Shown in pieces: positions 37,459 to 59,714 of a stretch of 64,000 nucleotides of DNA (the stretch's first letter is position 1; each line of letters opens with the position of its first letter). The stretch spans positions 1 to 64,000 of the forward strand of contig NZ_NJGU01000014.1 of assembly GCF_002213415.1 (NCBI RefSeq), in the 5' to 3' direction. This DNA comes from Herbaspirillum robiniae. GTDB taxonomy: Bacteria; Pseudomonadota; Gammaproteobacteria; Burkholderiales; Burkholderiaceae_D. A model generated the notes under the pieces. It did no database searches. It was not told the origin of the DNA and saw only the letters and a list, made by a program, of their open reading frames with translations. The position numbers and the translations under genes were made by a program.

Positions 37459-37932
37459 ATGACCACTGCTTTCACCGAACAGGACACCGCCGCCATGCAC
37501 CTGGCCATCGCCGCCTCCGCGCAGGCGCTCGCGCGCGGCGACATGCCCTTCGGCGCGACGATGGTCTCGCCGGCCGGCGCGGTGCTGATGACGGAGATGA
37601 ACAACCAGAACACCGCCGCCGACTGCACCGGCCACGCCGAAATGGTGCTGGTGCGCCGCGCGCAGAAAGAGCTGGGCCTGGAAGCGATGCGCGGCGCCAC
37701 CGTCTACGCCAGCGGCGAGCCTTGCGCGATGTGTTGCGGAGCGATGTTCTGGGGCGGCGTCGGGCGCGTGGTCTATGCCGCGTCCACCACGCAGATCGGC
37801 GAGGCCCTGGGCGGCCCGCTGTTGCCCTTGCGCGCCGCCGGCGTAGTCAATGGCGCGATGCCGGCGGTAACGGTCGAAGGACCGCTGTTGGGAGAAGACG
37901 CCGTGGCGGTGCTGCGCAGTTTTGAAGGCTAA
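37459..37932 (+). CDS. Nucleoside/base deaminase (cytidine deaminase-like zinc enzyme)
   Basis: A 157-residue member of the CDA fold (guanine/cytosine deaminase, TadA relatives). The zinc and proton-shuttle motif is TGHAEMVLV (His-Ala-Glu), and the two Cys ligands are in EPCAMCCGAMFWGGV. Preceding MPFGATMVSPAG is the conserved substrate-pocket strand. It ends 4 bp inside the convergent Sir2 gene. The operon context suggests it acts on an imported base; the exact substrate is unresolved. Confidence 0.92.
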   Translation: MTTAFTEQDTAAMHLAIAASAQALARGDMPFGATMVSPAGAVLMTEMNNQNTAADCTGHAEMVLVRRAQKELGLEAMRGATVYASGEPCAMCCGAMFWGGVGRVVYAASTTQIGEALGGPLLPLRAAGVVNGAMPAVTVEGPLLGEDAVAVLRSFEG

Positions 37933-38771
37933 GCCAGCAGCAACTGCAGACCCGCCAGCGCACCACAGGGCAGGCCGACCTGGTCGGCCCCGTTCACCTG
38001 CCACTCGCGCGGATTGATCCGCACCAGCGGCACGCCCAACCCCTCCCCCATCCTCCGCACCGACGGCACCGCCGTGCCGGCCCCGAGTTCGATCACCACC
38101 GGACGCTTCGCCTGGTCCAGCCAGGCGCGCATGCGCCGGTACTGCGCATCGGTGCGCCGCTCGTTCCAGCGATAGTCGTTGAACATCAGGATATTGGGCC
38201 GCGCCACCGCACCGCAGGAAGGGCACAGCGGCAGGGGCGAGCTCAGACGGCAATGCGCCATGTCCACCTGCGGCGCCACCGCATCGGCCGGCCAGATGGC
38301 AGCGCCCGCGCCGGAACAATCGTCGCTGCATTGCAGGTGATGGATGCTGCCGTGGCACTCGACGATGCGCTCCTCAGGCACGCCGGCCTTCTGGAACTGG
38401 CCGTCCACGTTGCTGGTGAAGACGAACATGCCTTGCGGCTTGGTCTTTGCCAATTCATTGAGCAGCGCAAACCCGGCGTGGGGAACGGTCTCGCGATACA
38501 GGTTCAGCCTGTGGCCGTAGAAACCCCAGGACAGCACGGGATCTTCGGTGAAGGCTTCGCCGTTGGCGATGTCGGTAAAGCTGATATTGGCTTTGGCCAG
38601 GGGCGGGTAGGCCTTCCAGAAACCCTCGTTGCTGCGGAAGTCGGGGAGGCCGGAGTCTACGCCCATGCCGGCGCCGGCGGTGATGATGAGGCTGTCAGAT
38701 TCTTGAAGCCATTGGCGGGCGCGGGTGAGTGTAGTCGCCCTAACCAAGGATAAGGTCTGCGTGGCTGACAT
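37929..38771 (-). CDS. SIR2-family NAD-dependent deacetylase
   Basis: A 280-residue sirtuin. NAD-binding motif: ITAGAGMGVDSGLPDFR; then FTSNVDGQFQKAG, the catalytic His in VECHGSIHHLQC, a zinc site formed by the QCSDDC and PLCPSC pairs, and NILMFNDYRW. GC content matches the host chromosome. It is convergent with, and overlaps by 4 bp, the deaminase gene. It borders the AT-rich island but does not look part of it. Confidence 0.93.
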   Translation of the reverse strand: MSATQTLSLVRATTLTRARQWLQESDSLIITAGAGMGVDSGLPDFRSNEGFWKAYPPLAKANISFTDIANGEAFTEDPVLSWGFYGHRLNLYRETVPHAGFALLNELAKTKPQGMFVFTSNVDGQFQKAGVPEERIVECHGSIHHLQCSDDCSGAGAAIWPADAVAPQVDMAHCRLSSPLPLCPSCGAVARPNILMFNDYRWNERRTDAQYRRMRAWLDQAKRPVVIELGAGTAVPSVRRMGEGLGVPLVRINPREWQVNGADQVGLPCGALAGLQLLLA

Positions 38772-38892
38772 CTTGGGCTCCTATTCATATAAGGCTTGAT
38801 AATGCTGAGAGCGCAATGGGACCGGGATCGTCAGCCGACATAGATAGCATGAGAGGCACAACCAATGAATCGGTATATTTTGAATAATGTTG

Positions 38893-38921
38893 TCTAAAAT
38901 TTACATATGGTTTTATTTAGA
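38893..38921. promoter_or_regulatory. Inverted repeat in the promoter of the island's XRE gene
   Basis: TCTAAA (38893-38898) and TTTAGA (38916-38921) are arms of an imperfect palindrome in an AT-rich stretch about 30-55 bp before the XRE start. This is the expected place for autoregulation by a controller-type protein. Confidence 0.4.
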
Positions 38922-38948
38922 TAATAGACCGTTACCCATTGGCGTCGG

Positions 38949-39224
38949 ATGCTTTTGGCGATGAAGAATATGGAAACTCTGCCGAGCGCACGCGAAATCT
39001 TTGGACTTAATGTTCGAAAAGCTCGTCGACTGAAGGAAATTTCGCAAGAAGAACTCGCTTTTCAGGCGGGTATTAGCAGGACTTACCTTAGTCAAGTAGA
39101 AGGTGGAACGAGAAATATTTCCGTAGACCACATGGAAGCTCTAGCAAATGCTCTAGAAATCGCGTTACAAAAGTTGTTGGATCCAGCGCTGTTTGTCATG
39201 ACCTCTGTTCACTTAGAAGATTGA
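38949..39224 (+). CDS. XRE-family helix-turn-helix regulator (controller-like)
   Basis: A 91-residue single-domain HTH protein: VRKARRLKEISQEELAFQAG, then ISRTYLSQVEGGTRNISVDH. This matches the size and sequence style of C (controller) proteins of restriction-modification systems. In-frame ATGs at 38949, 38961 and 38970 are all possible; none has a strong ribosome site. Base composition is clearly AT-richer than the chromosome. It is the first gene of the island and may regulate the downstream kinase-like gene or the methyltransferase. Confidence 0.88.
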   Translation: MLLAMKNMETLPSAREIFGLNVRKARRLKEISQEELAFQAGISRTYLSQVEGGTRNISVDHMEALANALEIALQKLLDPALFVMTSVHLED

Positions 39225-39401
39225 ACTCCCGAGAAGGGAACGACAATTCAGAGTTTGGCTTCGTTCCAGATATATCTTCCATGCGATTATTCTTATCATC
39301 TGGTAAATTCGTGTTACGTAAAAATTGTAACTTCTGAGCGAGCCGTTCAAGGGGGCCATGTGGCAATCGTCGGTTCATAACAAGAAAACATGGGGGGTTA
39401 A

Positions 39402-41576
39402 ATGGCGAAACTACGCCCACGAGCAAGAATTATTAGAACTATCGGAGATCAGCTTATTAGCGGCCCCGAAGCGGCTCTCATAGAGTTGGTAAAGAATGCA
39501 TATGACGCAGACTCACCTTTGGTTCACATTACTATTACTCCCCAAAATAGCGACCGGGCCAGTAAAGACTCCATCGTGGTCATTGATCGAGGTCACGGAA
39601 TGTCGGCATCAGATTTGACAGAGAAGTGGTTTGAGCCGGCCACTAGCGACAAGGTTGAGCGACGTAAAAGCCCAGGTGATCGGACAATGTTAGGAGCAAA
39701 AGGGGTCGGGCGATTCGCCACGGCGAGACTCGGCTCCTATCTAAATCTAAAGACCGTCAAGAAGTCAGAGGCTAAAACTGAAGTGAGCGAAATCACCCTA
39801 AATTGGGCCGATTTCGAGCACAGTAAATATTTGGATGAGGTCGATATTGAGGTCCGAACACACCCTGGAAATATCCATGATGTTCCTGGCGTCACACTAG
39901 AAATTAAAGACCTAAGAGACTCATGGACAGAGAACCAGCTAAGACAGTTAGTTAAGGAACTACGTCGGATTGCGTCTCCTATTGTTGCTCGGGAAGATCA
40001 ATTTAAGATTTATCTTGACATCTCGGCATTCAATTCGGACATCCATGGTTTTGACGGTCAAGCACTAGTTTCTGGTGCGAATCGAGAATCCGACAGCGAT
40101 GATATTGATCCAACTGAAATCCGGCCATTGCCCATCGGCGAAATCTGTCATTACACGGTCAACGGAATTTTCAAGAATGATGGTTCGTTTTCTGGAACAT
40201 TCATAAATCGCCGCGGCGACCACAAACCTCAACCAATAGAAATAAGTGCCACGGACCTTACGACAGATGAAGCAGCTTGTGGAAGCCTGCAATTGAAATT
40301 GAACATCTATGATCGCGAAGGAGATGCTGTAGTAGATCTTTTTCAGGCGTTGGGTTTAGGTGCAATTGGGCGACTCGAGGCGAAAAAAGTACTTGATGAA
40401 AATATAGGCATCGGTATCTATCGGAATGGTTTTCGCATCCGCCCTTATGGCGATGCAGAGACAGACTGGCTAGAGTTGGAAAGAATGCGCGTTCAGAATC
40501 CCTCAAAGAAATTAGGCCTCAATCAGGTATGGGGGATGGTAGAAATTGAAGATGAATTCTCGTCTGGATTGATAGAAAGAAGTAGTCGTGAGGGCTTAGA
40601 ACACAACGGTTCCTTCGAGCGCTTGCAAAGGCTAATCACCGACCTACTCACCATTGTGGAGACAATTCGCCAAGACTTCCGTCAAACGGCAGGCCTCAGT
40701 AGAAAAACAAATGTAGACACTGATGAAGTAAAGGAACGCGCCAATCTTAGAGCGACTACTCGCGCTATCTCCGATCTACCCGTGAAATATAGGGAGAAGC
40801 TAGAACGAGCAATGAAGCAAGACAGCTTGGCGTTGAAAACATCTATTGGAGAGCTCGAAACATATCAACAAGCGCTTGCATCTCACTCAACATTGGGCTT
40901 GGTTGTTGCTCAAGTTTTGCACGATGGAAGACGCTTCCTTTCTGATGTGACTACTCGTTCAAAACGTTTGGTAGAAGGAGCACCTAGACTTGAAGAAAAC
41001 TCCAAGTTTGGGGAGCACTTCCGCAATACTTTTAATGGCGAAGCCAGCTCTATTCACTCATCAGCGGGACAGCTGAACAAGTTATTCAGAACCCTTGATC
41101 CAATTTCTGGAAAGAAGCGGGGACGTCCAAAAAACTTTGCTCTTACAGACGTATTGGATAGATGTATTGGTTTGTTCAGCGATTCCATAAAGGACCACTC
41201 CATAGAATTAGAAATACTTGGTGCGGAGGAACAGCCGTTAGTTGTCGGCTATGAAGCGGATCTAATGGCTGCCCTGCTGAACATAATTGATAATGCAATT
41301 CATTGGCTGGGTGTGAGTTCTTTAAAGCCTCGCAAATTGAAGCTTTCCACTGTTCATTCAAAAAAGTACGTCCGATTAAGTATTTCGAATAATGGCGCGC
41401 TGATAGATGAGAGATTCTATCCTCGACTTTTTAGCCCTGGTTTCTCGCTAAAAACAGAAGGATCAGGAATTGGGTTGGCCATAGCCAGGGAAGCTATGCG
41501 AGCAAGTAAGGGGGACGTTGCTTTTGACCCTGACGCTGACGAAACAACTTTTGTTATTGAGATGAAGAGGGCGTAA
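39402..41576 (+). CDS. Double-GHKL protein: Hsp90/MutL-type ATPase fused to a histidine-kinase-like module
   Basis: A 724-residue cytoplasmic protein without TM segments. N-terminal GHKL ATPase: N-box LIELVKNAYDAD (Glu28, Asn32), G1 VIDRGHGM (Asp62, Gly64, Gly66), and G2 GAKGVGRFA (98-106), as in Hsp90, MutL and MORC. A central region of unknown fold follows (to about 450), then a helix with VLHDGRRFL whose His507 could be a phospho-acceptor, then a second GHKL domain: NIIDNA (627-632), LFSPGFSLK, and GSGIGLAIARE (687 onward). The second G1 box is degenerate (SNNGALID). The stop overlaps the receiver-gene start (TAATG). Start at 39402 follows GGGGGG. AT-rich and foreign-looking. Confidence 0.85.
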   Translation: MAKLRPRARIIRTIGDQLISGPEAALIELVKNAYDADSPLVHITITPQNSDRASKDSIVVIDRGHGMSASDLTEKWFEPATSDKVERRKSPGDRTMLGAKGVGRFATARLGSYLNLKTVKKSEAKTEVSEITLNWADFEHSKYLDEVDIEVRTHPGNIHDVPGVTLEIKDLRDSWTENQLRQLVKELRRIASPIVAREDQFKIYLDISAFNSDIHGFDGQALVSGANRESDSDDIDPTEIRPLPIGEICHYTVNGIFKNDGSFSGTFINRRGDHKPQPIEISATDLTTDEAACGSLQLKLNIYDREGDAVVDLFQALGLGAIGRLEAKKVLDENIGIGIYRNGFRIRPYGDAETDWLELERMRVQNPSKKLGLNQVWGMVEIEDEFSSGLIERSSREGLEHNGSFERLQRLITDLLTIVETIRQDFRQTAGLSRKTNVDTDEVKERANLRATTRAISDLPVKYREKLERAMKQDSLALKTSIGELETYQQALASHSTLGLVVAQVLHDGRRFLSDVTTRSKRLVEGAPRLEENSKFGEHFRNTFNGEASSIHSSAGQLNKLFRTLDPISGKKRGRPKNFALTDVLDRCIGLFSDSIKDHSIELEILGAEEQPLVVGYEADLMAALLNIIDNAIHWLGVSSLKPRKLKLSTVHSKKYVRLSISNNGALIDERFYPRLFSPGFSLKTEGSGIGLAIAREAMRASKGDVAFDPDADETTFVIEMKRA

Positions 41577-42649
41577 TGGAAAGTTTTGCCGAACTGCGCA
41601 TATTGGTCGCTGAAGACGAAGAGTCAAAAATCAAAGAATGGGTCGACGCAATTGCGGCACACAATGTTGACGTCGAAAACAAAAAATTCTCTGTCAATGC
41701 ACAATTTGCAAAAAGCGTCCAAGGCGCATTGTCGCTAATCGGTCAATTCCGTTTTGACGCGGCAGTCGTTGATCTTCGCCTGGAGATCGAAGACGGCGTA
41801 GAGGAAAACAATACGAATGGGAACGACTTGGTGCGCCATATTCTTGTAACAGAGCCTATGGGTGTGGTGGTATACACCGGTCAACAATCCGAAGCGGACG
41901 ACTATCGTGTACCGCAAGTCCGGATAATGAACAAAGGTGAAGGGCTAGCCCAAGTATTTGATTGGCTTTCTTCTAATAAAGATCTGTTCTTACGACTACG
42001 CGCTGCAAATCAGACGTTCAATAGGGAAACAGCCAAAATCTTCTTCGGATCTATTTGGCCGCGTTGGAATCACTGGACAAGCGACTCTCTGCCTGGCAAC
42101 CAGAGCCTGACGGATGTTCTTGCTCGACACGTGGTCGCTCACGTACATGACGCGTTGCTCGATGCCAGCGGAGATCGTACTCATCCAGAGGAGACTTACT
42201 TCGTTCCCCCAATAAAAAACCGGCTTGATACCGGAGATTTAGTAAATATAGATGGTGACGTTTGGATTGTTGTAACCCCGAGATGTGATCTTGCTTCCGC
42301 CGGAAAAGTTGAGACCATCCTCTTGGCTAAATGCAAGGATGTTTCTGAGTTATGGGCGGCAGCATTGGGCGCTGGCGCAAAAAGCGAAAGAAAATGCAAT
42401 GAGCTTATACAGCACGAACGAATGCCAAAGCAGCATTTTCTGCATCCGATGAGGGACAACAATAGCCAAACGCACGGCCCATGGATGGCACAGTTTCACC
42501 ATATCAGAGCTTTACCTGCAGCAGAGGCGGTAGTACAGCTGCTTCCACTGCGATTCGCTTCACTATCGCCGCTTTTTGTCCCTTCACTTGTAGAACGTTT
42601 TGGAGCCTACTTCAGCAGAATCGGCACACCTGCATATTCTAGCGAGTAA
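41576..42649 (+). CDS. Receiver-domain protein with an unrecognised C-terminal domain
   Basis: A 357-residue protein. Residues 8-130 look like a response-regulator receiver: LVAEDEE (acidic pocket, Glu13/Asp14), AAVVDLRL (phospho-acceptor Asp66), VVVYTGQ (Thr101) and IMNKGEG (Lys120). Past residue 150 there is no known DNA-binding output domain; the section has GDLVNIDGDVWIVVTPRCDL, with a Cys-Asp pair, and ends VERFGAYFSRIGTPAYSSE. Start and preceding stop overlap by 1 bp, so it is translationally coupled to the kinase-like gene and is probably its partner. The C-terminal domain could be an effector. Confidence 0.83.
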   Translation: MESFAELRILVAEDEESKIKEWVDAIAAHNVDVENKKFSVNAQFAKSVQGALSLIGQFRFDAAVVDLRLEIEDGVEENNTNGNDLVRHILVTEPMGVVVYTGQQSEADDYRVPQVRIMNKGEGLAQVFDWLSSNKDLFLRLRAANQTFNRETAKIFFGSIWPRWNHWTSDSLPGNQSLTDVLARHVVAHVHDALLDASGDRTHPEETYFVPPIKNRLDTGDLVNIDGDVWIVVTPRCDLASAGKVETILLAKCKDVSELWAAALGAGAKSERKCNELIQHERMPKQHFLHPMRDNNSQTHGPWMAQFHHIRALPAAEAVVQLLPLRFASLSPLFVPSLVERFGAYFSRIGTPAYSSE

Positions 42650-42675
42650 GAATATAGTGATGGCGCTTGACGAGA

Positions 42676-44250
42676 TTAGCTAATCTCGTCAAGCGCCATC
42701 TTAACGATAAGGCCAATCTGGCACGCCAAAAACGGGGGAACCGCGTTACCAACCTGATGATATTGCTGTGTTCGATTTCCCTGAAAGAAATAATTATCTG
42801 GAAATGTCTGAAGCCTAGCAGCCTCTCGCACTGTTAAGCTACGGCACTGCTTAGGATCTGGGTGGATGAAGTAATGGCCATCTTTGGAGATATGACTAGT
42901 GACAGTTGTTGAAGGTCCGGACCACATCTGAACTTTGAATCTGTCAGCAAATTTCCCGCTTTCCCAATTTGCATGGGCCGGCTTAAGGCCTTCCGCCATA
43001 TTAAAATCCTCATGCCCTTTTGGAGAACGACCTTGGACATGGGCGTAAGTGGTTGCATATGCATAACGCATCAGATCTGAGGCCATGTGGCCACGCGCTT
43101 CGTGGTTTAGCCACACCGCTAAGCTTTTATCTTCATACCATTGATTTAAGGCACCGCTTTTCCCTAACGTTAATGTGGGCCGTGCTTTCGCTATTCGAAG
43201 TCCTCCTATTGAATAGCGCCCACTGATAAGCGTCGCGTTGCGCGCGAGTTCTTTTTCAAGTTCAACGGCCCCTTTTTCTTTGGCAGCTCTGCTCAATATC
43301 TCGAACTGCTGCTTTACTGTCTTAGTCCACTCGTTGGCGTCGTCAACTCGCCGGCTCAAATGACTACGCAGTGGAGGCAGAGTCTCAATTGCCTCTTTTA
43401 CCGACGACGGCTGCGCACGGCGCTTTAGCAGTGTTATTTTTTTCAGCCCTAGATCTCTTCTTACGCCAACAAGAATGACTCTGTGGCGCGCTTGAGGTAC
43501 GCCGTATTCTTCAGCGCGAACAATGAATTTACGGGGATCTAATTCGCTAAAATCGGAATCAGCGTCAAAATAGATATCGTGGGACAAGGAAAAAATCCGA
43601 TAGCCGGATTTTTTAGACTTCACTCCTATTGCTTGGTCCGGATCTGCAAGATCTTCAAGTATCGACTTGAACATCTGCTTATTAGCCACCGACGCTGAAA
43701 GAATACCTTTTACGTTCTCCATGACGAATATCGCTGGACGATACTTTTGGATAATCCGTAAGTACTCTTTATAAAGAAAATGACGATGATCATTTTCTGG
43801 ACGATAGTCGCTATTTCCCTTATTTCTGGAGCGTCCCACCAAGGAATATGCTTGACACGGTGGCCCACCAATCAAAACCCAAGGCTTTCTGTCGCTTAAG
43901 CCAGCATCACTAATAATCTTATCCAAGCGCTCATTATCTTTTTCATCTCCAAGCGTGAGACGCAGCGCCTCAGCTTCAGCTTTTTGCTGAGCAGCACGAA
44001 TTGTGGGTGTGACGGGAAAGACCTCGGCTCGATTGCAGAACGCATAGTAGTGAATAAGCTCTGCTGGCGTCTCTCTTTTCAATATTCGATAAAACGCCCT
44101 CAGCATCAAGGTGCGATGCGCGAACTTATCCATTTCGGCGGACACTAGGATCCGAAAAGGGTCCGTTGCCACTGAAGAAAAACCTTCGCCCAGCCCCCCC
44201 GGGCCAGCGAATAAGTCCACTATGGGGATGACTTTTTTGCTTGAACTCAT
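42676..44250 (-). CDS. DNA (cytosine-5)-methyltransferase
   Basis: A 524-residue C5-MTase with motifs in order: I DLFAGPGGLGEGF (12-24), IV GGPPCQAYSLVGR (catalytic Cys132), VI MENVKG, VIII QARHRVILVGVR, IX TVREAARLQTFPD and X QVGNAVPP. About 90 extra residues lie between motifs I and IV, making it longer than minimal Dcm. The target-recognition region is between VIII and IX; the sequence recognised is unknown. It is convergent with the receiver gene (27 bp) and divergent from vsr (44 bp to its ATG). AT-rich. With Vsr it gives the methylation plus G:T repair half of a modification system; no partner endonuclease is recognised. Confidence 0.95.
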   Translation of the reverse strand: MSSSKKVIPIVDLFAGPGGLGEGFSSVATDPFRILVSAEMDKFAHRTLMLRAFYRILKRETPAELIHYYAFCNRAEVFPVTPTIRAAQQKAEAEALRLTLGDEKDNERLDKIISDAGLSDRKPWVLIGGPPCQAYSLVGRSRNKGNSDYRPENDHRHFLYKEYLRIIQKYRPAIFVMENVKGILSASVANKQMFKSILEDLADPDQAIGVKSKKSGYRIFSLSHDIYFDADSDFSELDPRKFIVRAEEYGVPQARHRVILVGVRRDLGLKKITLLKRRAQPSSVKEAIETLPPLRSHLSRRVDDANEWTKTVKQQFEILSRAAKEKGAVELEKELARNATLISGRYSIGGLRIAKARPTLTLGKSGALNQWYEDKSLAVWLNHEARGHMASDLMRYAYATTYAHVQGRSPKGHEDFNMAEGLKPAHANWESGKFADRFKVQMWSGPSTTVTSHISKDGHYFIHPDPKQCRSLTVREAARLQTFPDNYFFQGNRTQQYHQVGNAVPPFLACQIGLIVKMALDEIS

Positions 44251-44817: not shown

Positions 44818-47334
<2,517 letters not shown>

Positions 47335-47451: not shown

Positions 47452-48558
47452 TCAGATACGCATCGGCATGACGACGTATTTGAAGTCGGCGTTTTCCGGG
47501 ATGGTGATCAGGGCCGACGAGTTGGCATCGCCCAGGGCGATGTTGACGTAGTCGTTCTTGAGGTTGTTGAGGACGTCGAGCAGGTAGCTGACGTTGAAAC
47601 CGATGTCGACGGTGTCGCCGCCGTAGTCGATTTCCAGCTCTTCGACCGCTTCTTCCTGGTCGGCGTTGGTGGAGCTGATCTTCAGGCTGCCGGGAGCGAT
47701 CACCCAGCGCACGCCCTTGAACTTGTCGCTGGTCATGATGGCGGCGCGCTGCAGCGAACGCAGCAGCTGTTCGCGACTGATGGTGAAGCCGTTCTTGTAG
47801 CCCTTGGGCACCACGCGGGTGTAGTCGGGGAACTTGCCTTCGACCAGCTTGGAGATCAGCTCGATGTCGGCGAAGGTCAGCTTGACCTGGTTGTTGGCGA
47901 TCTCCAGCTTGACTTCATCGTCGCTCTCGTCGAGCAGGCGCTGCAGCTCGATGATGGTCTTGCGCGGGATGATGACTTCCTGGCGCGGGAAGTCCTGTTC
48001 GGTGGCGACCTGGCAGAAGGCCAGGCGGTGGCCGTCGGTGGCGACCGCGATGACGTTCTTGCCTTCGACCACCAGCAGCAGGCCGTTGAGGTAGTAACGG
48101 ATGTCCTGCTGGGCCATGGCGAAGTGGACCATGTTGAACAGGTGCTTCAGGGTCTTTTGCGGCAGGGTGACCTGGGCGTTGTACTGCTCGGCCTGGGCGA
48201 CGGTGGGGAATTCTTCCGCGGCCAGGGTCTGCAGCGCGAAGCGCGACTTGCCGGACTGCACCGTCATGCGCTTGTTGGCCAGGGAGATCGATACTTCGCC
48301 GGAGTCAGGCAGGGCGCGCAGGATGTCGAGCAGCTTGCGCGCAGCCACGGTGGTGGCGACCGCGTCGCTGCCGGAACCGACTTCGGCGTGCGTGGTGATC
48401 TGCACTTCGATGTCGGTGGACAGGAAAGACACCTTCTCGCCGTCCTTGCGGATGAGGATATTGGCCAGAATCGGCAATGTGTGCCGACGCTCGACAATAC
48501 CGCTCACGATCTGCAGAGGACGCAGGAGCGTGTCTCTTTGGGTTTTAACCAATTGCAT
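47452..48558 (-). CDS. dnaN: DNA polymerase III beta subunit (sliding clamp)
   Basis: A 368-residue processivity clamp. It begins MQLVKTQRDTLLRPLQIVSG, the conserved family start, preceded by AAGGA at a suitable distance; ten extra upstream residues are possible but poorly supported. Typical sections are RRHTLPILANILI, FATDGHRLAF-type VATDGHRLAFCQ, and the C-terminal YVVMPMRI. Length agrees with the 366-371 usual for the family. It is the second gene of the dnaA-dnaN-gyrB block, but separated from dnaA by 1.1 kb. Confidence 0.97.
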   Translation of the reverse strand: MQLVKTQRDTLLRPLQIVSGIVERRHTLPILANILIRKDGEKVSFLSTDIEVQITTHAEVGSGSDAVATTVAARKLLDILRALPDSGEVSISLANKRMTVQSGKSRFALQTLAAEEFPTVAQAEQYNAQVTLPQKTLKHLFNMVHFAMAQQDIRYYLNGLLLVVEGKNVIAVATDGHRLAFCQVATEQDFPRQEVIIPRKTIIELQRLLDESDDEVKLEIANNQVKLTFADIELISKLVEGKFPDYTRVVPKGYKNGFTISREQLLRSLQRAAIMTSDKFKGVRWVIAPGSLKISSTNADQEEAVEELEIDYGGDTVDIGFNVSYLLDVLNNLKNDYVNIALGDANSSALITIPENADFKYVVMPMRI

Positions 48559-49081
48559 AGTCTGTTTGTCCTTGCTAGTAGTGGTCATTAAAGGATGCCA
48601 TTGGCGGGCTTCCGGTCATGCAAATGTCGCGCGTGTTCCTCCTCTGGTGAAAAACAGCTGCATGCAGCCGGAACCTGCCTGAATACGCAACGCTCCTGCA
48701 TTTGCATGTCCGGCCGCCGCCGGTCCGAAACCCGTTCCGAAGAAGCCGGCAAGTCGGCCGCGGCGGATTGTTGCGGGCTTCTCAACGATCCTTGGCGACG
48801 CTATGCACTGGCCACACGTTATGAACATTTGGAGGTTAATTCCCGTTTTTAAAGGGATTTTCTCCGAAGTTTCCGTGATACCCCGCGGATTTTCTGCGTT
48901 CTGGGCGGCCCTTGCGTCCGCCGGCGAAATATCGTCTGACATTGTACCAATCATCCCCCTTTCCGAGTAGTCGCTTGAGCCTCGGAAGAGGGCTTTTACG
49001 AAGGAAATTGATGGGGCGGCGCGGGTGCTTTGCGGAATGCGCCGGCCGCTCGCCGGGCGGCGCGGGGATGGGCATGCGCGT

Positions 49082-49666
49082 TGTGGATAAGTCGGGTTTG
49101 GCGAGCGGCGTTGTGCCGCTTTTTTGTGCACGGATGGGGTGGCGACTTGATGCGCCGGTTGGCTTAGGTTTGTGAGGATTTGTGGATAAGTTATGTTTTC
49201 CACATTGCCTGTTTGGCTATGCCTTCTTTGTCGAGGGCGCCCTTGGCTATCGTTGTGTATAAGTCATCTTGTTCACAGGCGATTTTTTTGACTTCTCTTG
49301 GCTCGCTGAGTTGTTCACAAGTTCGCCTAGTGAATGCGGGTGTGGGTAAGTCGATGCCTGCGTCGCCAAACGCCCGCCGCTGCCTGCTGTGGATAATCCT
49401 TGGTGCCCGCGGGACGCGGGTTTCGGGCTGATGGATGGATCTTGCCGCACGCGTCTGACGTGCCGGCTTGTGGATAAATTGACCGGCGGGCCAAACCCGC
49501 ATTCTTTCCGGCAAGTTGATTTATCCACCGCCGGAAATACGCGCCGGCCCGCTGGCGCAAGGTGCTGTGGACAAATCATCGTCCCCAACAAAAATGCCGC
49601 CCGGTTTGCAGCCGGGCGGCATTTTCATTTTCCGTGGGCGATGTGGACAAGATTTCCTTGTCCACA
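49082..49666. other. DnaA-box cluster between dnaN and dnaA (candidate oriC)
   Basis: The 1.1-kb gap 48559-49680 has no gene. Exact TGTGGATAA boxes start at 49082, 49181, 49388 and 49469; one-mismatch forms at 49254 (TGTGTATAA), 49341 (TGTGGGTAA), 49566 and 49642 (TGTGGACAA); and reverse-oriented TTATCCACC at 49521 and TTGTCCACA at 49658. The first six are all in one orientation, spaced 99, 73, 87, 47 and 81 bp. This is the expected position of a chromosomal origin, though no strongly AT-rich unwinding element is obvious inside it. Confidence 0.75.
49586..49625 (-). terminator. Terminator of dnaA
   Basis: On the minus strand AAAATGCCGCCCGG, a short loop and CCGGGCGGCATTTT form a 14-bp stem ending in T residues, 56 bp past the dnaA stop. 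The symmetric A/T flanks would let it work in both directions. Confidence 0.88.
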
Positions 49667-49680
49667 AGCGCCGGCGGCCA

Positions 49681-51081
49681 TCATCCCTTCAGGGTCTGCT
49701 CCAGCACGTGCAGCTCGTGGTTGCACTCCGGGCTCTTGGCGCGGTCGGCGGCGATCTTGCGCACCGCGTGCAGCACGGTTGTATGGTCGCGGCCGCCGAA
49801 GAGGTCGCCGATCTCCGGCAGACTCTTCTGGGTCAGCTCCTTGGCCAGGTACATGGCGATCTGGCGCGGGCGGGCGATATTGGCCGGGCGCTTTTTCGAG
49901 TACATGTCGGCGACCTTGATGTTGAAGAAGTCGGCCACGGTCTTCTGGATGTTTTCCACCGAGATCTGGCGGTTCTGCACCGACAGCAGGTCCTTCAACG
50001 CTTCCTTGACGACATCGATGGTGATGTCCTTGCCGTGGAAACGGGAGTAGGCCAGGATCTTGCGCAGCGCGCCTTCCAGCTCGCGCACGTTGGAGCGCAG
50101 GTGCTTGCCGACGAAGAAGGCGACGTCGTCGGACAGCACCACGTCTTCGGCAGCAGCCTTTTTCATCAGGATGGCCACGCGCATTTCCAGCTCGGGCGGC
50201 TCGATGGCCACCGTCAGGCCGGAGTCGAAGCGGGAAATCAGGCGATCGTCCATGCCGGTGATTTCCTTGGGATAGGTATCACTGGTGATGATGATCTGCT
50301 TCTTGGCGGCGATCAGCGCTTCGAAGGCGTAGAAGAATTCTTCCTGGGTGCGGCTCTTGCCGCCGAAGAACTGGATATCGTCGATCAGCAGCAGGTCCAG
50401 CGAGTGGTAGTAGCGCTTGAAGTCGTCGAAACCCTTGCGCTGGTAGGCCGTGACCACGTCGCGCACGTATTGCTCGGCGTGGATGTAGCGGATCTTGGCG
50501 CCCGGGTTATCCACAAGCACCTGGTTGCCGATGGCGTGGATGATGTGGGTTTTACCCAGGCCCACGCCGCCGTACAGGAACAGCGGGTTGTACGAGGTGC
50601 CGGGGTTGTTGGCGACCTGCGTGGCGGCGGCGCGCGCCAGTTGGTTGGCCTTACCGGTGACCAGGTTGTCGAAGGTCAGCACCGGGTTGATGCGCGACTG
50701 CTCCTGGCGAGGCGCCACCGCGCGCACCGGCGCGGCCGGCTCCGGATCGAGGTGCAGCTGCTCGTGCGTCGGCAGGCCCAGGCCCGATGCGCCGCCGCCG
50801 CCTGGCTGGGCGCTGGCCGACGCGCGGCGCGCCTGGCCGATGCGCGGATCGAGCACGAACTGGACTTCGGTGGGCGCTTCCCAGTACTCGCTGGCGAGGT
50901 TGGTGATGCGGTTGGCGAACTGGGCCTTGACCCAGTCCAGCTTGAAGCGATTGGGCGCGGCGATGCGCAGCAAACCGTCTTCGTAGTCGAGCGGAATGAG
51001 CGGCTTGATCCAGGCGCTGTATTGCTGAGGCGTCAGCTCCTGCTCAAGCTTGGTGGAGCAGGTCTGCCAGAAATTTTCCAT
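49681..51081 (-). CDS. dnaA: Chromosomal replication initiator protein DnaA
   Basis: A 466-residue initiator. Domain I begins [20 protein letters not shown], domain II is a short Ala/Pro/Gly-rich linker (about 85-130), domain III AAA+ has Walker [16 protein letters not shown] and Walker [12 protein letters not shown], and domain IV has the DnaA signature [18 protein letters not shown]. An exact TTATCCACA box lies within the coding region at 50507-50515. It is transcribed leftward toward dnaN and gyrB. Confidence 0.98.
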
Positions 51082-57254: not shown

Positions 57255-57490
57255 ATCAGCCTGTGGATAAAGTTCTGAATAACTTTTTCACGGATTGGGG
57301 ACAAGCCCGAAAGTTATCCAAAGCCGAAAATTTATCCAAGAAATATTCGGGCGCCATACAGGCCTTGCCAAGTGTTTATACTTTTCGCAAGCGCCTGATT
57401 TTTTTCCGGTAAACCAAGTTATCCACAGAAAGTGGCGAGTGTTAACCATTACCTACTAATTTTATATACAGACTTATTCTAAAAGCCTGA
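57255..57490. repeat. DnaA-box module, copy A
   Basis: Within the gene-free gap 57009-57716. Boxes: TGTGGATAA 57262-57270, TTATCCAAA 57314-57322, TTATCCAAG 57332-57340 and TTATCCACA 57419-57427, then GTTAACCATTAC at 57441 and an AT-rich tract (ATTTTATATACAGACTTATT). Intervals between box starts are 52, 18 and 87 bp, against 53, 18 and 88 in copy B at 58065-58340. The arrangement of R-type boxes next to an AT-rich tract resembles an origin unwinding unit. Another TTATCCACC occurs at 57667-57675. Confidence 0.8.
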
Positions 57491-57716
57491 AAACCCGAAC
57501 TTCGGCGGCGAACGCGAAAAGCGGTGCGTAAAACACCGCAGATGTTGTTCTTCAGGAAAGACCTGTTGATGCAAGACGAATGCGTTTTCCTGACTTCTGC
57601 GAAGCGCAGGCACTCGGCAATGAAAAAACGCTTGTGGAGAAGTGAAAAGCCGGCGCGCGGGATAAGTTATCCACCGCCGATGGCGGCCAAGGCCCGCCAA
57701 GGCATCAAAACGGCCC

Positions 57717-58019
57717 TCAGCCCTTCAAGTCGACGGCGTCCGGGACCTCCAGCACCAGATCCGACTCGGCCTGCGCTACGCAGGGCAGGATCCATCCTTC
57801 GGCTTTTTCCTCCCTGGTCAAACCCGGCCATTCGATCTGGTAACTGATTTGTCCACTGCCGAGCTTGCACATGCAGGTCCGGCAGGTGCCGTTGCGGCAG
57901 GAATTGGGCAGGCGGATCGACTGCGCCAGCGCCGATTGCAGCAAGGACAGCTTGTTTTGTTGCTCGAATTGCATGCCCGAAGGCTGGAGTTGGATGAGAT
58001 GCGGTCGATCGGGACTCAT
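57717..58019 (-). CDS. 2Fe-2S ferredoxin
   Basis: A 100-residue plant-type [2Fe-2S] ferredoxin. The cluster ligands are in SCRNGTCRTCMCKL (three Cys of CX4CX2C, the fourth in ILPCVAQAESD about 30 residues later). Small size and lack of other domains indicate a stand-alone electron carrier, probably serving an oxygenase or reductase encoded elsewhere. An upstream in-frame start to 58032 is possible. It sits exactly between the two copies of the DnaA-box module. Confidence 0.92.
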   Translation of the reverse strand: MSPDRPHLIQLQPSGMQFEQQNKLSLLQSALAQSIRLPNSCRNGTCRTCMCKLGSGQISYQIEWPGLTREEKAEGWILPCVAQAESDLVLEVPDAVDLKG

Positions 58020-58064
58020 GGCGCGTCAACAAGCCTTTTTATTTGGTCTTTTTACCGATTTTTG

Positions 58065-58340
58065 GGCGGCCTGTGGATAAGTCTTTGCATATCAGGCGCA
58101 TGGATTGGGTATATCTAGGCAAAGTTATCCAGTGCCGAAATTTTGTCCAAGATCTGTTCCTCGACAATCCCAAAGCTTACCAAGCGTTTATCAAGGACGT
58201 AAACGACTGATTCTTTTCATGTAAACCAAGTTATCCACAGAAAAATCCGACGTTAACCATTACTACTATCCTTATATATATCCTTTTAACTTAAAGAACA
58301 GAAACCAGGGAACAGCGTGGACAACTCAACTTCCACGTGA
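58065..58340. repeat. DnaA-box module, copy B
   Basis: Within the gene-free gap 58020-58506. Boxes: TGTGGATAA 58072-58080, TTATCCAGT 58125-58133, TTGTCCAAG 58143-58151 and TTATCCACA 58231-58239, then GTTAACCATTAC at 58252 and AT-rich TTATATATATCC. Shared sequence with copy A includes GTAAACCAAGTTATCCACAG and GAAACCCGAAC-like ends. Mean distance between copies is about 810 bp, same orientation. Confidence 0.8.
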
Positions 58341-59391: not shown

Positions 59392-59714
59392 CGCTAAGTT
59401 CTGCCAATTGCAATAAATAGAGGTTTAACAAGTCTGTGGATAAACAGTGGAAAGTCCATGTATATCTCGTGCATATCCTCTGTATAAGCCCGGTATATCC
59501 CGGTGGATAGCATGTGGGCAAGTCGCCGGATCCAGGCAAATCAATTATAAGTATTTTTTATGTTGTTGCTGATAATTACTCATTGGATAGGATGGCGTTG
59601 CAGCGCTATTCTTGCTCCGACCGATTGACAGTCATTGCCCGCATCCATCGCCGGGCCACCGGATCAGGAGACGGATCCGGCTCGGTTCTACGGAAAATAA
59701 CCAAAGGAATACTT
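59392..59714. promoter_or_regulatory. Divergent promoter region with a DnaA box
   Basis: This 323-bp gap separates the LysR and mmsA-like genes. It contains an exact TGTGGATAA at 59435-59443 and AT-rich runs (TATAAGTATTTTTTATG near 59545) likely to hold promoters. LysR-type T-N11-A sites cannot be singled out by eye. Confidence 0.5.

Follow-up and report, generated by a model that had tools for sequence, protein, structure and literature searches.

The locus described here raises the question of where a Herbaspirillum chromosome begins to replicate, and what is signified by two similar clusters of DnaA boxes on either side of a small gene. The window, that is the whole stretch of DNA analysed, comprises 64,000 nucleotides and opens its contig, in an assembly of 5.53 Mb in 31 contigs. 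Herbaspirillum is a genus of the Oxalobacteraceae, which is the family referred to in all counts below. On the minus strand of the window lie gyrB (44818–47316) and dnaN (47452–48588), both named from reading their translations, and dnaA (49681–51081), confirmed by Pfam. The gap between dnaA and dnaN (48589–49680) is the usual place for an origin to be annotated, but it is not favoured in this case; it holds 11 DnaA-like boxes, four of them perfect and most on a single strand. The two similar clusters are found in gene-free stretches around a [2Fe-2S] ferredoxin gene (Pfam Fer2; 57717–58019, minus strand), bounded by an AsmA-family gene and a LysR-type gene. This locus is very likely the replication origin, and the pair of units it contains is probably the chromosomal oriC of this Herbaspirillum in doubled form, each unit of ~220 bp possessing the components of a complete oriC. 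Relatives have two or three copies of the unit at the apparent replication start of the chromosome, often at a great distance from dnaA.

Unit A occupies 57260–57479 and unit B 58070–58291, each read on the plus strand from box 1 to an AT tract. Each opens with box 1, a perfect DnaA box on the minus strand which is DUE-distal and faces outward (57262–57270 in A; 58072–58080 in B). On the plus strand there follow two weak DnaA-like sites, box 2 (57314–57322; 58125–58133) and box 3 (57332–57340; 58143–58151), then an IHF-like site recognised by comparison of the sequence with the consensus (YAANNNNYTGATW in A, 57388–57400; in B, 58200–58212) and situated 18 bp before box 4, and then box 4 itself, which is perfect and DUE-proximal (57419–57427; 58231–58239). 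Beyond box 4 come GTTAAC, CTA repeats and the AT tract, together forming the putative unwinding element (57441–57479; 58252–58291). Box starts are spaced by 52/18/87 bp in unit A and 53/18/88 bp in unit B, the outward-facing perfect end boxes lying 157–159 bp apart. An earlier note on this DNA had credited each copy with four DnaA boxes. Boxes 1 and 4 deserve the name, but boxes 2 and 3 are weak (TTATCCAAA / TTATCCAGT; TTATCCAAG / TTGTCCAAG), and box 2 is unrecognisable in one Herbaspirillum clade. Similarly GTTAACCATTAC, which had been said to lie 21–22 bp after the last box, is indeed common to both units, but the distance (22 bp in A, 21 bp in B) is counted from the start of box 4, and the sequence begins 13 and 12 bp, respectively, past its end. 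The IHF-like site is a conserved element absent from that account.

The duplication on which the note was founded, with modules starting 810 bp apart and sharing the order, orientation and spacing of their boxes, is real. The local alignment of A with B scores 116, whereas none of 2000 first-order Markov shuffles exceeds 29, and 157 of its 227 columns are identical. Identity reaches 96% in boxes 1 and 4 and 86% in the tract, falling to 66% in the rest of the unit, which bears out the impression that the boxes have diverged less than their surroundings. Within the 64 kb, A and B are the only pairs of outward-facing perfect boxes less than 400 bp apart. They are also the only matches in the 5.53-Mb genome to the unit model, which was built with A and B included.

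The same organisation is found throughout the genus. Searching the loci with a profile made of units A and B yielded 80 matches, reduced by de-duplication to 55 copies; 23 duplicates (one unit carrying two locus ids) and the locus L001 of the window itself were left out of this set and of the tree. The 55 copies come from 28 genomes including that of the window, of which 27 contribute two copies each and the remaining one a single copy. None of the 55 has a mismatch in box 1 (TGTGGATAA) or box 4 (TTATCCACA), and these two boxes are always 157–159 bp apart. Every one of the 55 likewise has GTTAAC 21–22 bp after the first base of box 4 and, following it, CTA-rich and TATATA-like sequence; the tract is present on both copies in all 27 genomes in which both were read. 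In 42 of the 55 copies the IHF-like sequence is separated from box 4 by exactly 18 bp, compared with 0.3% of shuffled stretches. Boxes 2 and 3 keep their position across the genus but not their sequence. The conserved core consists of the two end boxes and the spacing between them, together with the tract and the IHF-like site. Units A and B are equally conserved and equally constrained, identity outside the end boxes being 0.701 among A copies, 0.705 among B copies and 0.661 between A and B of the same genome. The tree places the A and B copies of the main clade together, apart from those of the second clade, whilst A and B separate within each clade; this pattern is compatible with an ancient duplication followed by exchange, and also with independent duplications. 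The ferredoxin gene is missing between the copies in some Herbaspirillum genomes, and the best 10 named loci with a relative of this gene are all from Herbaspirillum.

Across the family, a sequence-only unit model (R1) applied at E ≤ 0.01 found matches in 356 of 371 genomes. According to a hand count from the match listing, in which overlaps were checked only in 40 complete genomes, 319 genomes have two or more matches (116 of these three or more), 37 have one and 15 have none; the last two figures stand as evidence against the origin reading. In the 40 complete genomes, which were picked by the authors and are related, so that the counts are not independent, there are two or three separate copies in 38, a single copy in one and no copy in one. 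The separate copies lie within ~3.1 kb of each other, and their orientation is direct in 34 of the 38, convergent in three (G166, G167 and G173) and divergent in one (G160). Two copies lie only 40–70 bp apart, leaving no room for the ferredoxin gene, in G016, G017 and G024; elsewhere one copy and a fragment (G027), three copies (G036) or two convergent copies (G035) are found. Because copies may be direct, convergent or divergent, the variation in orientation suggests that the units are self-contained. The internal layout was followed in 101 family copies, obtained from 103 matches by setting aside a partial one (L188, 8–110) and a weak one (L273, 1600–1737). Box 1 and box 4 are 156–160 bp apart in 99 of these; conservation of the spacing in relatives was a check proposed in the earlier note. 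A perfect box 4 is present in 91 and a perfect box 1 in 86 of the 101, the remainder having one mismatch. A run of at least three NTN triplets is present in 87 of the 101 copies, and one of at least five in 54, as against 15% in shuffles.

In relatives, the distance between the unit cluster and dnaA allows the two to be compared as candidate sites for the start of replication. They are 108–790 kb apart in 28 of the 45 complete genomes tabulated. The position of dif and the orientation of 5S genes were used for mapping because GC skew, the check by which the earlier note's reading was to be refuted, is too weak and noisy to decide: it fits the cluster weakly in G265, has the opposite sign in G296, shows no trend in G344 and has its minimum 62 kb away from the cluster in G015. 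G265, G296 and G344 were retained in the dif and 5S counts. The dif pattern was matched in 46 of 47 genomes, and the reversed pattern, run as a control, in none; the tabulation omits G185, which has no unit match, and G376, which has no dif match, and ignores a second, weaker dif-like match in G081. The antipode of dif is closer to the cluster than to dnaA in 27 of the 28 genomes with a separation above 100 kb, and in 22 of 22 for which the exact length was used. With exact lengths, the median deviation from the antipode is 0.54% of the chromosome for the cluster and 5.75% for dnaA; over all 28 genomes it is 0.63% versus 5.78% (Wilcoxon p = 5e-8, which is indicative only, the genomes being related). 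Lengths are rounded for G034, G100, G179, G212, G304, G323 and G358, six of which are among the 28, and it is in G304 that the dif antipode favours dnaA. The chromosome arms are unequal with either site in G031, and very unequal with both in G296.

The orientation of 5S genes was examined in 20 genomes chosen by the authors for a large distance between dnaA and the units, which are related and give counts that are not independent. Here 138 of 140 5S genes are directed away from the cluster and 131 of 140 away from dnaA. Nine genes discriminate between the sites: eight favour the cluster (in G107, G134, G142 and G374, three of these four genomes belonging to one genus) and one favours dnaA (in G296). 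G296 has only two 5S genes, both against the direction expected from the cluster. In the relatives, then, it is the unit cluster and not dnaA which maps to the inferred replication start. In the seven complete Herbaspirillum genomes tabulated the cluster is ~7 kb from dnaA, and because the two are so close, we infer the origin assignment in this genus by transfer from its relatives, through homology of the unit. As a separate observation, the cluster, dnaA and dif of G296, a complete genome, are out of balance with one another in a manner pointing to rearrangement or misassembly.

Each unit has the arrangement expected of an oriC. Typical origins, as outlined in published accounts, have outward-facing end boxes with an AT tract beyond the DUE-proximal one, and in the units a DnaA-box cluster lies beside an AT-rich unwinding element, with an R1-like box facing that element and the distal box opposed. 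The proposal in the earlier note of an origin-type unwinding unit is supported, since the last box lies beside trio-like repeats and an AT tract family-wide and the relatives' cluster is at the replication start. The E. coli oriC, according to published descriptions, has strong boxes R1 and R4 at its ends, an IHF site close to the DUE-proximal one (the published consensus being TAAnnnnTTGATW), weak sites in between and an unwinding element beyond R1. The units have in common with it the strong end boxes, an IHF-like site, weak inner sites and an unwinding element, whereas the unit of the family is doubled or tripled. The E. coli unwinding element carries 13-mers where the units carry trio-like CTA repeats, and the E. 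coli oriC lies at mioC–gidA, a locus unlike that of the units. The basal unwinding system (BUS) consists of a DnaA box, a spacer and DnaA-trios, for which a published search gave 13 bp as the commonest spacer and 16 bp as the limit. As in this system, the box of the unit precedes repeats whose complementary strand shows the 3'-GAT-5' trio consensus, at least three trios (NAN) being found there in 87 of the 101 family copies. By contrast, box 4 and the trio-like run are separated, as read from the sequences, by 18–25 bp, which exceeds the published limit and counts against the origin reading.

From this layout we infer that DnaA and IHF bind, that the DNA unwinds there and that both copies are active. 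DnaA would bind the two strong outward-facing end boxes, box 4 beside the AT tract acting like R1 of E. coli and the distal box 1 like R4, whilst IHF would bend the DNA just inside box 4. ATP–DnaA would fill the weaker sites between the end boxes, and a DnaA filament beginning at box 4 would spread over the CTA/TAG repeats, after which the AT tract would melt and the helicase be loaded. Either unit could start, the other being copied passively by its fork. It is plausible, on an even balance, that both copies would be competent origins. It may also be, with somewhat less than even probability, that the family uses two or three complete, independently competent origins side by side, moved away from dnaA, any copy of which may fire, and that copy number and orientation have been repeatedly reshaped with most lineages keeping at least two.

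Matches to the unit model are also found more widely. In a sample of the order, 102 of 299 genomes were matched, 11 of them in the family; among the 91 outside it, 66 were matched once. Some double matches outside the family are overlapping opposite-strand matches to one near-symmetric unit and not two copies. The unit lies at most ~90 bp behind dnaA in G038, G039, G041, G051 and G052, and is not directly behind it in G040 and G056, all outside the family. Because the unit adjoins dnaA in five of these seven genomes in which the place of dnaA is known, a single oriC behind dnaA is suggested to be the older state, the unit having moved and multiplied in the Oxalobacteraceae. Two neighbouring same-strand matches were noticed outside the family in G476, G532, G579, G543, G456 and G488; doubling may have taken place more than once.

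The main rival to a doubled oriC is an origin at the same locus with one working unit and one regulatory copy, the latter being an auxiliary DnaA-binding subregion which loads, titrates or bridges DnaA. The bipartite origins of Bacillus subtilis and of Helicobacter pylori and other Epsilonproteobacteria provide the model: in published accounts of these, only one of the two halves is unwound, and dnaA is the gene between them. Both systems have two box clusters around a gene, which DnaA could bridge. Here, in contrast, each half appears complete, and between them lies a ferredoxin gene or no gene; a bipartite origin carries its unwinding element on one cluster only, while both copies of the unit carry the tract. 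The bipartite origin suggested in the earlier note fits only in part, since both copies carry all the elements, some relatives have three and orientations vary. The rival can draw on the difference between A and B at a third of positions outside the boxes and on their separate grouping within each clade of the tree, yet every element, the AT tract included, is kept on both copies and equally conserved, and copy number and relative orientation vary across the family. A single starting unit is considered unlikely.

A different rival would move the origin to the dnaA–dnaN gap (~49 kb) and leave the units as DnaA-regulating sites akin to datA or DARS. The H. seropedicae genome paper does place the probable origin in this gap or upstream of dnaA, and the 11 boxes of the gap, together with the unit directly behind dnaA in five of the seven sampled genomes of other families in which both places are known, lend it some appeal. 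Set against these are the lack of an intact unit in the gap and the position of the cluster, rather than dnaA, opposite dif in the relatives, and this alternative is judged highly improbable. Identity with datA or DARS, which the earlier note had entertained, was rejected in view of the inferred replication start at the relatives' cluster and of the AT tract which each copy possesses. A further reading, in which the repeats serve the ferredoxin gene as a pair of promoters under DnaA control or are the remains of a mobile repeat, is scarcely credible. Direct repeats do surround one small gene here, but the closely spaced pairs in G016, G017 and G024 have no room for it, only two copies exist in the genome and at a single place, and the conserved elements hold family-wide.

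The reading of the pair as a doubled oriC bears on published assignments. The Janthinobacterium sp. HH01 paper assigns the origin by G+C skew together with dnaA, dnaN and gyrB; if the present reading is true, the origin assignments for both this strain and H. seropedicae, which relied on skew and on these genes, would move. More than one predicted oriC per bacterial chromosome has been reported by Gao 2015 (PMC4403523), who listed four single cases of putative double oriCs, whereas here one unit is multiplied family-wide at one inferred replication start. No description of doubled oriC units in the Oxalobacteraceae was found in the open-licence literature searched, so that novelty is not proven. 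The units would represent a natural, conserved multiplication of an origin unit in culturable soil and plant bacteria, in which the firing of both units, once-per-cycle control and the reason why selection keeps more than one are directly testable.

Several minor features of the neighbourhood may be recorded. The boxes of the dnaA–dnaN gap may be what is left of an older origin, or may serve to titrate DnaA or to regulate dnaA. To the right of unit B, the stretch 59430–59560 has a single perfect box at 59435 (minus strand) together with several sequences close to a box, and at 59539 the 40-mer richest in AT within the interval 44–64 kb; it matches the unit model weakly (~4–5 bits) and is perhaps a worn third unit or nothing. 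Beside gyrB, the low-GC interval 37929–44250 encodes a SIR2-domain protein, an unassigned protein, a C5 cytosine methylase and a GHKL/HATPase protein with weak matches to type II restriction enzymes, and is likely a restriction-modification (defence) island. Finally, near 10 kb in L221 (G265) and L131 (G036), genes resembling a GMC oxidoreductase and a branched-chain-type ABC ATPase adjoin the units and by eye resemble the right flank of the window, though dnaA is elsewhere, so that one side of the origin neighbourhood looks conserved in these loci.
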